64,000 nucleotides of DNA from Candidatus Merdisoma merdipullorum. Its GTDB lineage: Bacteria > Bacillota > Clostridia > Lachnospirales > Lachnospiraceae. The position numbers were made by a program, and so were the translations under genes. Numbering within the stretch: position 1 is the first letter of the stretch; each line of letters opens with the position of its first letter. Under the pieces are notes generated by a model that was not told the DNA's origin, searched no databases, and saw nothing but the letters and a program-made list of their open reading frames with translations. The DNA lies in contig DVLE01000046.1 in the NCBI GenBank assembly GCA_018715645.1, forward strand, positions 1 through 64,000. The letters run 5' to 3'. Shown in pieces: positions 42,138 through 44,814 of this stretch.

Positions 42138-42173
42138 AGCCCAGGAAAATCATCAGATTTTCCTGGGCTTTTT
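42138..42173 (+). terminator. Strong intrinsic terminator (ilvA operon)
   Basis: A perfect 14-bp stem AGCCCAGGAAAATC, an ATCA loop and a T5 tail. It closes the plsX-to-ilvA block and separates it from the repeat array. Confidence 0.9.
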
Positions 42174-42181
42174 GCCTATAC

Positions 42182-42438
42182 CTACGGATGAAAAGCCAGG
42201 AATCGTCTATTTCATCCGTAGAAATCAGGCTCTGTCTACGGATGCAAAACCAGGAATTGCGTATTATATCTGTAGAAATCTGGCTCTGTCTACGGATGTA
42301 AAACCAGGAATTGCATATCACATCTGTAGAAATTCGCGTATGTCTACAGATACAAAGCCAAGAATTGTATATTTCATCCGTAGAAGCTTGCCTTTTTCTA
42401 CAGATACAAAGCCGGGAAATTGCGGATTACATCCGTAG
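42182..42438. repeat. Tandem array of five 54-nt hairpin repeats
   Basis: Unit starts are 42182, 42236, 42290, 42344 and 42398, exactly 54 nt apart; the last unit is partial (41 nt). Each unit starts CTAC(G/A)GAT and carries ATC(C/T)GTAG about 30 nt later, so each folds into a hairpin. Right arms also pair with the next unit's left arm (perfectly for units 1/2 and 3/4). Because 54 is a multiple of 3, both strands show long false ORFs with 18-residue repeats. The array lies 140 nt upstream of a tyrosine recombinase. Confidence 0.88.
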
Positions 42439-42534
42439 AGTGCTGCCGCAATGGCAAGCCGCTGCCCTCAAATTCTATTTTTCTTGCTTAAATCCCCAAA
42501 TTACAAAAATATGTTTCTGGAGTTTTTCCGATAC

Positions 42535-42578: not shown

Positions 42579-43427
42579 ATGTCGTATGAAATCACCCAGG
42601 AATGCCTGTCGGCCTATCTTATCCGGCTGCGGGAGGAGGAAAAAAGTCCCCATACGATTCAGAAATATTTCCGGGATGTGAAAGCGTTTGGAAATTTTGC
42701 AGACGGAGACTTTTCCGGAAAAGAAACGGTACTGCGCTGGAAGGAGCGTTTGAACAGAAATTATAAGCCAAGAAGTGTGAATTCCATGATTGCTTCTCTG
42801 AATCATTTCTTTTCCTTTATGGGCTGGGAGAGACTTCGGGTGCGTATGTTTCGGATTCAGGAAGAAATCTATGAAAGGGAGGAGCGGGAGCTGACAAGAA
42901 TGGAATATGAACGCCTTCTGAGAGAGACGCGTCGGAGAAAAAACAGACGTATGGAGATGCTTTTGCAGACTCTTGGGGCCACAGGAATCCGCATCTCAGA
43001 ACTGCCGTTTATCACAGTGGAAGCCGTGAGAAAGGGAAAGGCTGACGTCAGGGGAAAGGGAAAGCAGAGACAGGTATTCCTTCCTGGAGAATTGTGTCAG
43101 GCATTGCGGCGGTATGGAAGGGAACAGAAGATAACGGCAGGCCCGCTTTTTGTCACGCGGACAGGGCGGCCCCTGGATCGGAGTAATATCTGGAGGGAGA
43201 TGAAAAAGCTCTGCGAGCGTTCCGGGGTAAGTCCGCAGAAAGTATTTCCGCATAATCTCCGTCATCTGTTTGCGAAAATCTTTTACCAGTTGGAAAAGGA
43301 CATTGTGAAGCTGGCTGATATTCTGGGACACAGCAGTATCAATACTACGAGAATCTATACGAAGGAGAGCGGCAGAAGTCACCGCAGGATGATAGAACGG
43401 ATGAAATTGATTTTGTATACAACATAA
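42579..43427 (+). CDS. Tyrosine recombinase (XerC-like integrase/invertase)
   Basis: A 282-residue site-specific recombinase starting at ATG 42579, 7 nt after AAAGGAGG (the track start at 42546 is a TTG). The N-terminal SAM-like core-binding domain spans about 1-95. The catalytic domain has R138 (TGIRISEL), a lysine near 160, H225 and R228 (HNLRHLF), H251 (LGHSSINTTRIY) and nucleophile Y260. All catalytic residues are intact. The size fits Xer-type or phase-variation invertases rather than phage integrases with an arm-binding domain. Its stop codon lies inside a 24-bp repeat that recurs inverted 207 bp downstream; I infer that it inverts this segment. Confidence 0.92.
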   Translation: MSYEITQECLSAYLIRLREEEKSPHTIQKYFRDVKAFGNFADGDFSGKETVLRWKERLNRNYKPRSVNSMIASLNHFFSFMGWERLRVRMFRIQEEIYEREERELTRMEYERLLRETRRRKNRRMEMLLQTLGATGIRISELPFITVEAVRKGKADVRGKGKQRQVFLPGELCQALRRYGREQKITAGPLFVTRTGRPLDRSNIWREMKKLCERSGVSPQKVFPHNLRHLFAKIFYQLEKDIVKLADILGHSSINTTRIYTKESGRSHRRMIERMKLILYTT

Positions 43428-43673
43428 TCTATATCATGTTGTTGATACATAGTGCAGTCCGGGTGTATTTTATCACAGACTGCTTAAAAAGACGATCTGC
43501 AGTCAGCTTTTTTCAGAAAACTGGAATGAAAAAGAGCTGGTGAAATTGAAAAATGGCAGGACAAAGAAACCTGTACGGCAAAATGCAGGGAAAAGCTGAA
43601 AATTTTTTCATTTCTTTGTCTGCGATCCGACTGCCGGCGACGCGGAATTACAACATGATATAGATTATGTTGT
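43419..43673. repeat. Predicted invertible DNA segment bounded by perfect 24-bp inverted repeats
   Basis: Left repeat 43419-43442 and right repeat 43650-43673 are exact reverse complements over 24 bp, with no match beyond. Each is itself a near-palindrome: ACAACAT arms, a 10-nt asymmetric core (AATCTATATC on the left) and ATGTTGT, as expected for tyrosine recombinase sites with two protein-binding arms and a directional core. The 207-bp interior has no ORF but holds a candidate promoter and several GACTGC/GCAGTC copies. The left repeat overlaps the recombinase stop codon; the right one ends 27 nt before the lipoprotein gene. Confidence 0.8.
43467..43495 (-). promoter_or_regulatory. Candidate promoter inside the invertible segment, pointing away from the lipoprotein gene
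   Basis: On the minus strand, TGATAAAAT (43475-43467) is an extended -10 with a weak -35 (TCGTCT, 43495-43490) 17 nt upstream. As assembled it fires leftward, antisense to the 3' end of the recombinase gene. Inversion would aim it at the lipoprotein gene. GCAGTC/GACTGC repeats flank the -10 and -35. Confidence 0.45.
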
Positions 43674-43700
43674 TAAGGCGCTGACAGAAGGAGAATACAA

Positions 43701-44345
43701 ATGAAAAAGAGAAGAAGGGGTTTTATTTTTATATTGGCGTTTGCGGCGGCTGTATGTTCCGGCTGTATAAAACAGGAGGAAGAAAGCAGTTCCATGCGCT
43801 CGGTGATCTATCTGTATCCCAGAGATGCTTTGGAGGTCAGTATTCAGCTGAACGGCAGCAGCCTGGAGGATGCCTGTACTTATCCTCGTTATAAAGAGGG
43901 CTGGCATGTAATAGCGAGACCGGATGGGAGCCTGACAAATCTGGACGATGGGCAGGAGTATGACTGCCTGTTCCGGGAGGAAAATGTGGAGGAAACTTTT
44001 GATATGGAGGAAGGCTTTTTGGTAAAGGGGGAGGAGACCGCTGCCTTTTTACAGGAGACTTTCACAGGATTGGGCCTGATTCCGGAGGAATACAATACGC
44101 TGCTTGTCTGGCATCTGCCGCAGATGGAGGAGAATCCCTGGAATCTGATTATGTTTCGTACGGAGATAGGCAGGGGAAGCACGTCGCTTGCGGTCTTGCC
44201 GGAACCGGACAGAGTTTTTCGGGTAATTATGGCGTATCAGGCTTTGGAGAAACCGGTAAATGTCAGGGAACCCAAGCTGGAAGAGCTGGCGCCATCCCGG
44301 AACGGATTTACAGCCATAGAATTTGGAGCGCTGGAACTATCCTGA
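43701..44345 (+). CDS. Predicted lipoprotein, putatively phase-variable
   Basis: A 214-residue exported protein: basic N-terminus (MKKRRRG), hydrophobic helix and lipobox ending at Cys (AAVCSGC, about residue 24). The mature part starts with SVIYLYPRDALEVSIQL and contains GWHVIARPDGSLTNLDDGQEYDCLF and LLVWHLPQMEENPWNLI. I recall this layout from uncharacterised gut Firmicutes proteins, but no function is known to me. AGAAGGAG precedes the ATG. No promoter reads into it in the present orientation of the upstream segment. Confidence 0.8.
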   Translation: MKKRRRGFIFILAFAAAVCSGCIKQEEESSSMRSVIYLYPRDALEVSIQLNGSSLEDACTYPRYKEGWHVIARPDGSLTNLDDGQEYDCLFREENVEETFDMEEGFLVKGEETAAFLQETFTGLGLIPEEYNTLLVWHLPQMEENPWNLIMFRTEIGRGSTSLAVLPEPDRVFRVIMAYQALEKPVNVREPKLEELAPSRNGFTAIEFGALELS

Positions 44346-44390: not shown

Positions 44391-44419
44391 TTGCATTCAT
44401 CAGAAAAGTATTGTAGAAT
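44391..44419 (+). promoter_or_regulatory. mntP promoter
   Basis: TTGCAT (44391-44396), 17 nt, TAGAAT (44414-44419), a few bases before the riboswitch. Confidence 0.7.
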
Positions 44420-44425
44420 AAAAAA

Positions 44426-44513
44426 GCGCGTAAGGGAGTAGTTGGCGTCCTCGGACGTGACAGAATCAACAGATTGGCGAACGCCTGGTTTTGTACGAAA
44501 TAACGAGACTTAT
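44426..44513 (+). ncRNA. yybP-ykoY (Mn2+) riboswitch aptamer
   Basis: The conserved 5' box TAAGGGAGTAG, an internal helical region with AATCAACAGATTGGCGAACGC, and the 3' box AACGAGACTTA fit the yybP-ykoY manganese riboswitch. The P1 pairing (GTAAG with CTTA) uses bases that also form the left arm of the terminator, so Mn2+ binding should prevent termination. The downstream gene mntP, a manganese exporter, is the classic target of this RNA. Confidence 0.88.
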
Positions 44514-44547
44514 CCGCAGATGATTTCTGCGGACAGGTCTTTTTTTA
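44506..44547 (+). terminator. Riboswitch-controlled terminator
   Basis: AGACTTATCCGCAGA pairs with TCTGCGGACAGGTCT, with a T7 tail. The left arm overlaps the aptamer P1 strand, giving two mutually exclusive folds. Confidence 0.9.
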
Positions 44548-44814
44548 TTTCATAGGAAAGGCCGTGTTACGTTAATATGTGAAAGTAAAGTGAAAAAAGG
44601 TCTTTCCTATGAAATAAAATGCACTTCGTGCAAGGATGCGCAGCTCGCGGAGAGGAAATTGCTGCTTTGCAGCCCGCTCGCGCGCGAAGAATTTCGCAAG
44701 CGAAATTCGTATTTATTCCCGCGGACAGGAAGTTTTTCCGGCTTTCCGCGCGGGAAAAGGACGTTTCACAAGCCCGATTTTTACGATATTCAGGAGACAA
44801 AGGAGAGAAGAAAC
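44543..44814 (+). promoter_or_regulatory. Hairpin-dense leader between riboswitch terminator and mntP
   Basis: A 21-bp inverted repeat (44543-44563 with 44599-44619) begins in the terminator T tract. Further hairpins follow: TGCAC-TTC-GTGCA (44620-44632), GCTGC-TTT-GCAGC (44661-44673), GAATTTCGC-AA-GCGAAATTC (44689-44708) and TTCCCGCG with CGCGGGAA (44716-44756). This 270-nt stretch carries no convincing gene; the in-frame track ORF from 44590 reads through it. Confidence 0.6.

Follow-up and report, generated by a model that had tools for sequence, protein, structure and literature searches.

A probable promoter-inversion phase switch at a lipoprotein locus of a Lachnospiraceae genome and the recombinase family to which it belongs

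Introduction

A tyrosine recombinase gene, a short segment bounded by inverted repeats and a lipoprotein gene lie in succession in a genome of Candidatus Merdisoma merdipullorum, and this arrangement raises the question of whether the recombinase inverts a promoter within the segment and thereby switches the lipoprotein gene. The sequence-only reading of the window, by which we mean the whole 64,000-nt stretch of DNA analysed, had proposed that the neighbouring recombinase turns an invertible promoter ON and OFF. Promoter inversion across short repeats by a neighbouring tyrosine recombinase is already known from fim, RecV and gut invertons. We find this reading to be the best of those considered, strengthened by orthologous loci, by a site rule that extends across a recombinase family and by inverted homologous segments, and we regard a promoter-inversion phase switch operated by the adjacent recombinase, captured here in its OFF phase, as highly probable. 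For a commensal member of the Lachnospiraceae, the locus represents a testable, well-supported case of phase switching of a lipoprotein at the cell surface.

Anatomy of the locus

The features of the locus, with window coordinates, are the following:

42579 to 43427, plus strand: tyrosine recombinase, the proposed invertase (282 aa, XerC/D-like); from Pfam, catalytic residues and orthologues
43419 to 43442, plus strand: left crossover site IR1, overlapping the recombinase stop, with half-sites ACAACATAAT and ATCATGTTGT and core CTAT; from the repeat and the family consensus
43443 to 43649, no strand assigned: putative invertible segment, 207 bp; at other family loci, homologous segments occur in either orientation
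43467 to 43495, minus strand: sigma-A-like promoter; position and direction equal in all four orthologues
43548 to 43573, no strand assigned: conserved mid-segment block AAAAATGGCAGGACAAAGAAACCTG; kept in four orthologues while its surroundings are not
43650 to 43673, minus strand: right crossover site IR2, identical to the reverse complement of IR1; invariant in all four species
43688 to 43693, plus strand: lipoprotein ribosome-binding site AAGGAG; from the sequence
43701 to 44345, plus strand: proposed switched gene, a lipoprotein of the uncharacterised 'YLYP' family (214 aa); orthologues lie behind an inverton in three relatives

The structural elements named by the sequence-only reading were all recovered. 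The recombinase gene is intact, with the catalytic residues R138, K162, H225, R228, H251 and Y260 all present, and its stop codon TAA (43425-43427) lies inside the first arm of a 24-bp exact inverted repeat, the two copies of which are complementary at 24 of 24 positions and stand 207 nt apart. A gap of 27 nt separates the second arm from the lipoprotein ATG, each repeat contains a dyad with 7-bp outer arms (ACAACAT/ATGTTGT) around an asymmetric core, and the segment between the repeats is devoid of any ORF of 60 aa or more. The family consensus described below widens the half-site to 10 nt and leaves CTAT as the 4-nt asymmetric core. Such a repeat is far beyond chance expectation; it is the sole perfect inverted repeat of at least 20 nt within 1 kb in the whole window, and a search of the 2.87-Mb assembly at up to three mismatches returned just these two copies of the site.

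Also as had been claimed, the segment carries an extended -10 element facing away from the lipoprotein gene (TGATAAAAT, minus strand, 43475-43467), which is conserved in all three orthologues from related genomes. It is preceded by a -35 element TCGTCT (43495-43490) and a 17-bp spacer, and the pattern across orthologues is TTGTnn-17-TAAAAT with an extended -10, located 24 nt inside IR1 and directed leftward. The window promoter is of moderate quality, its -35 being weak and its score exceeding those of shuffled segments at p=0.07 only. In 4/4 orthologues the outward promoter is present and directed at the recombinase, and this conservation supports the proposal that the lipoprotein is OFF in this assembly.

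From these elements we infer the following cycle. Recombinase dimers would bind both 24-bp sites, and strand exchange in the region of the asymmetric 4-nt core would invert the 207-bp segment. In the captured phase the putative segment promoter would point left into the 3' end of the recombinase gene, leaving the lipoprotein OFF; after inversion it would lie 24 nt inside IR2, from where a leader of ~70 nt would run through IR2 into the lipoprotein gene (ON).

The recombinase

The protein combines a SAM-like N-terminal domain with a Phage_integrase catalytic domain (Pfam PF02899, E 1.1e-8, and PF00589, E 2.5e-25, respectively), and its catalytic residues are invariant in a 21-member alignment. 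Against the models of the housekeeping enzymes XerC and XerD (TIGR02224 and TIGR02225) it scores 123 and 129 bits, compared with cutoffs of 335 and 330, and on sequence comparison it is related to these enzymes while belonging to a separate family. It is likewise far from the FimB/FimE-type invertase models PRK09870 and PRK09871 of NCBIfam (23-24 bits versus cutoffs of 221 and 222).

Conservation in related genomes

Intact orthologues of the recombinase, 78-79% identical, were found in three of 15 genus mates. Repeats diverged beside an intact recombinase had been named as grounds for abandoning the switch; instead, all three orthologous loci keep a 21-nt core of both repeats, together with a spacer of 206-229 nt, the promoter and a lipoprotein gene that follows IR2; the remainder of the spacer has diverged. 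The gene order is SMC-ftsY-ilvA-[recombinase-segment-lipoprotein]-mntP, and in four other relatives (G011, G013, G014 and G015) ilvA and mntP occupy the same place with neither recombinase nor lipoprotein between them. Recombinase, segment and lipoprotein are therefore gained or lost as a cassette, and this joint presence or absence, along with the lack of any other site in the genome, bears out the description of the switch as self-contained.

When orientation was compared between assemblies, all four orthologues (the window locus and those of the three relatives) were in one phase with the promoter leftward, an outcome that has a probability of about one half if 84% of loci are OFF. In relative G001 (L034, G001:C59) the lipoprotein orthologue has one in-frame TAG, and the recombinase and crossover sites are intact.

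A family of recombinase-inverton loci

At E <= 1e-40, 82 of 397 Lachnospiraceae genomes contain homologues of the recombinase, many of them in several copies, and in a second search, of named genomes, at least 582 relatives are found among the matches listed, in Lachnospiraceae, Oscillospiraceae and other Clostridia. We examined about 200 loci in two sets (119 and 77). Of the loci with at least 700 nt of downstream sequence, 150 of 168 (87/102 and 63/66) have an inverted repeat just past the 3' end of the recombinase gene, so that the search beside homologous recombinases suggested at the outset yielded an inverted repeat at most loci. The family site consensus is ACMACATAAT-NNNN-ATTATGTKGT. 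A dyad search that left the core free identified 83 loci with two dyads, the cores being complementary in 77 of them versus 0.3 expected (83/256), and with 54 different cores among these loci; the in-gene control was nearly empty. A count of 149/149 matching cores is biased, its loci having been selected by matching repeats, and 77/83 is the unbiased figure. The cores are matched within a locus and varied between loci, as paired crossover sites require. Only two of 61 within-genome locus pairs share a core, both of them near-identical duplicates, and about 150 recombinase-site pairs have 84 different cores in total.

At about 150 loci with unrelated neighbours, the repeats enclose a promoter segment of 160-500 bp and the recombinase lies outside them. 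This layout bears on the idea that the recombinase is the integrase of a mobile element and the repeats are the ends of that element, which would fit the absence of the cassette between ilvA and mntP in four relatives and the occurrence of a few family members on phage-like contigs or plasmids. Element ends are nevertheless rejected, since the repeats are inverted and surround the promoter segment alone, without the recombinase, and we accord this idea practically no probability.

The site rule makes phase-variable genes predictable from assemblies alone, and the collection of about 150 recombinase-site pairs makes recombinase specificity and crosstalk directly testable. No direct report of this recombinase-inverton family in Lachnospiraceae was found in the literature. 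One locus, L040 (G011:C64), has a family recombinase and one crossover dyad, with the ribosome-binding site of the next gene close behind; its invertible segment seems to have been lost, and it is possibly a fixed or broken relic.

Promoter position and phase across the family

A clear promoter was called in 126 of 152 family segments with a sigma-A matrix that is our own approximation and was used solely against shuffled segments. The -10 element sits 10-60 bp from the outgoing site in 120 of the 126 clear calls versus 6 of 29 in shuffles, the promoter lying ~37 bp inside that site (medians of 38 nt for left-facing and 36 nt for right-facing promoters). This arrangement weighs against the view that an orientation-dependent terminator, with the promoter outside the segment, controls the gene rather than movement of a promoter. 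Such control has a precedent in C. difficile cwpV, where 21-bp repeats enclose a segment of 195 bp that contains the terminator, the promoter being outside (PMC2784873), and internal terminator-like hairpins do occur in some family segments (24 rightward and 19 leftward of 152). What the segments most often conserve is, however, a promoter whose distance from the outgoing site is constant, and a search of the window segment in both directions yielded no terminator, which speaks against a cwpV-like arrangement there; overall we consider this explanation improbable. Promoter inversion is the likely mechanism.

At 106 loci the promoter points toward the recombinase, and at 20 it points toward the downstream gene. 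The 20 right-facing loci are dispersed on the recombinase tree (16 changes), and phase is therefore not stably inherited. These data also inform a more cautious reading, in which the switch is real by descent but is locked OFF or, in this lineage, flips so seldom that the lipoprotein is effectively silent. The single phase of all four orthologues, the in-frame stop in the G001 lipoprotein gene and the unbroken window contig at the repeat are in keeping with a locked switch. Against it, four species conserve the recombinase catalytic residues and the two crossover sites intact, and four-of-four OFF is unremarkable because the family phase bias is 106:20. We judge a locked switch unlikely and retain the operating promoter switch, with current flipping at the window locus and control of the lipoprotein by orientation as its predicted consequences.

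Evidence for inversion at family loci

Natural inverted copies of the segment exist at related loci. In the paralogous loci L116 and L118 of one genome, the segments are 80% identical on the minus strand and the flanks align on the plus strand, with the downstream gene collinear (79% over 602 nt). Similarly, between L182 and L185/L186 the recombinase and IR1 are collinear and the segment is minus-strand-homologous, the sequence beyond it being different. Assemblies also tend to break beside the recombinase. Contig ends within 250 nt of the gene were found on the 3' side in 13 of 96 cases versus 2 of 96 on the 5' side in the first set, and in 9 of 74 versus 1 of 74 in the second. In G002, one contig stops at the last base of a 23-nt repeat and another starts with that repeat and continues through the segment and its second repeat into the downstream region. 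Breaks of this kind presumably arise where an assembler meets reads with two continuations at the repeat.

It is very likely that the adjacent recombinase carries out site-specific inversion. Each repeat is itself palindromic, as would suit dyads that are operators of a regulator flanking a segment that does not invert, a reading on which the original proposal would have failed. An operator would have no use for asymmetric cores that agree between the two copies, and core covariation, inverted homologous segments, contig breaks at the repeat and the family-wide linkage to a recombinase all speak against this reading. Plain operator dyads are rejected on the core covariation and the inverted homologues, and we hold this reading to be very improbable.

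Possible transcription toward the recombinase and private cores

Of the 109 loci whose IR1 is located past the recombinase gene, 79 have a leftward terminator or U-run next to it; of the 43 with the overlapping layout seen in the window, 5 do. The IR1 dyad with a U-run itself forms a leftward terminator in 55 of 152 loci, versus 6 to 9 at the other three exits. The frequency of leftward terminators suggests genuine OFF-phase transcription that is, as a rule, halted before it reaches the recombinase. Antisense RNA to the recombinase 3' end, which had been expected from leftward firing, is possible in the layout with IR1 overlapping the gene; as a general mechanism it is disfavoured by the blocking terminator or U-run at 79 of the 109 loci with room for one.

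We tentatively suggest, at somewhat less than even confidence, that the family recombinases recognise a nearly constant half-site (ACMACATAAT) and that the private 4-nt cores serve as barcodes against crosstalk, which if true would allow up to six or more paralogous switches per genome to flip independently. On a second reading, OFF-phase antisense RNA to the recombinase would bias the phase; this would be comparable to orientation-dependent fimE control and would fit the loci with IR1 over the stop codon and no leftward terminator.

Relation to known systems

In E. coli fim (fimE - fimS - fimA), the recombinase transcript has the switch as its 3' end, and FimB and FimE are short tyrosine recombinases of about 200 aa that work with accessory proteins. 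The present enzyme differs in being a 282-aa XerC/D-like protein with a SAM-like domain. The two systems share a co-oriented recombinase immediately upstream, an invertible promoter segment and a surface gene downstream (fim is discussed in PMC2784873). With C. difficile cwpV/flg and RecV the locus has in common a XerC/D-family tyrosine recombinase, short repeats (21 bp there), a segment of similar size (195 bp there) and an origin in Clostridia. RecV, however, works on several separate sites (PMC5903667), whereas here there is one recombinase per site pair, immediately adjacent, and the promoter is inside the segment. Bacteroides Mpi resembles the family in promoter inversion ahead of surface loci but is a serine rather than a tyrosine recombinase, acts at many loci (PMC5903667) and belongs to the Bacteroidota, whose promoters differ.

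The closest match is inverton group 139 of the hCom2 community. According to the passages of that account considered here, 32 of its 33 invertons are in Clostridia and are linked statistically to an adjacent tyrosine-type recombinase, invertase group 35 (PMC11892184). Its repeats are 14-26 bp, with spacers of 205-227 bp in two examples (PMC11892184, Microbiome 2025). The same passages report flipping at the level of reads in Intestinimonas and in Clostridium sp. D5, where the repeat is 26 bp and the spacer 205 bp, and both orientations in reads, shifting with passage or mucin attachment (PMC11892184). Taxon, recombinase type and repeat and spacer sizes agree with the present family, and on these attributes the two may be the same. 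The passages considered contain no description of private 4-nt cores, a half-site consensus, leftward terminators or this lipoprotein locus (PMC11892184), and an explicit site code with private cores and directional terminators may be new.

Downstream genes and neighbouring sequences

A signal peptide and a lipobox-like SGC are present in the lipoprotein; it gave no significant match in Pfam, NCBIfam or PDB, and a single-sequence AlphaFold2 model is unusable (mean pLDDT 37). A paralogue, 51% identical, is located elsewhere in the genome at L270 (G000:C87, 1444-2109) adjoining recA and a gene for an M15 D-Ala-D-Ala carboxypeptidase, with no inverton dyads near it. Across the family, the switches precede many different, largely surface-related genes. 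Signal peptidases account for 7 of 63 downstream genes, and other cargo includes Rrf2 and HTH regulators, CpsB/CapC, an EPS glycosyltransferase, adhesins and Ig-like, choline-binding and VWA surface proteins. The 63 genes also include one DNA polymerase IV-like and one GGDEF protein, implying a phase-variable mutagenic polymerase or c-di-GMP signalling.

Several further elements were noted around the locus. Between ilvA and the recombinase (42173-42442) lie about five tandem 54-bp units, each with an internal dyad (CTACGGATG...CATCCGTAG); the unit is a dispersed hairpin repeat, because similar repeats are present on contigs C11, C60, C61 and C69 of the same genome. Downstream, the mntP leader (44400-44550) is 77-88% identical in relatives, contains AAGGGAGTAGTTG and ends in a hairpin followed by a T-run. 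It looks like a manganese riboswitch of the yybP-ykoY type, and Rfam returned nothing above gathering scores for this leader. Between the leader terminator and mntP, an imperfect 26-nt inverted repeat (88%) with a 25-nt loop occupies positions 44543-44619.
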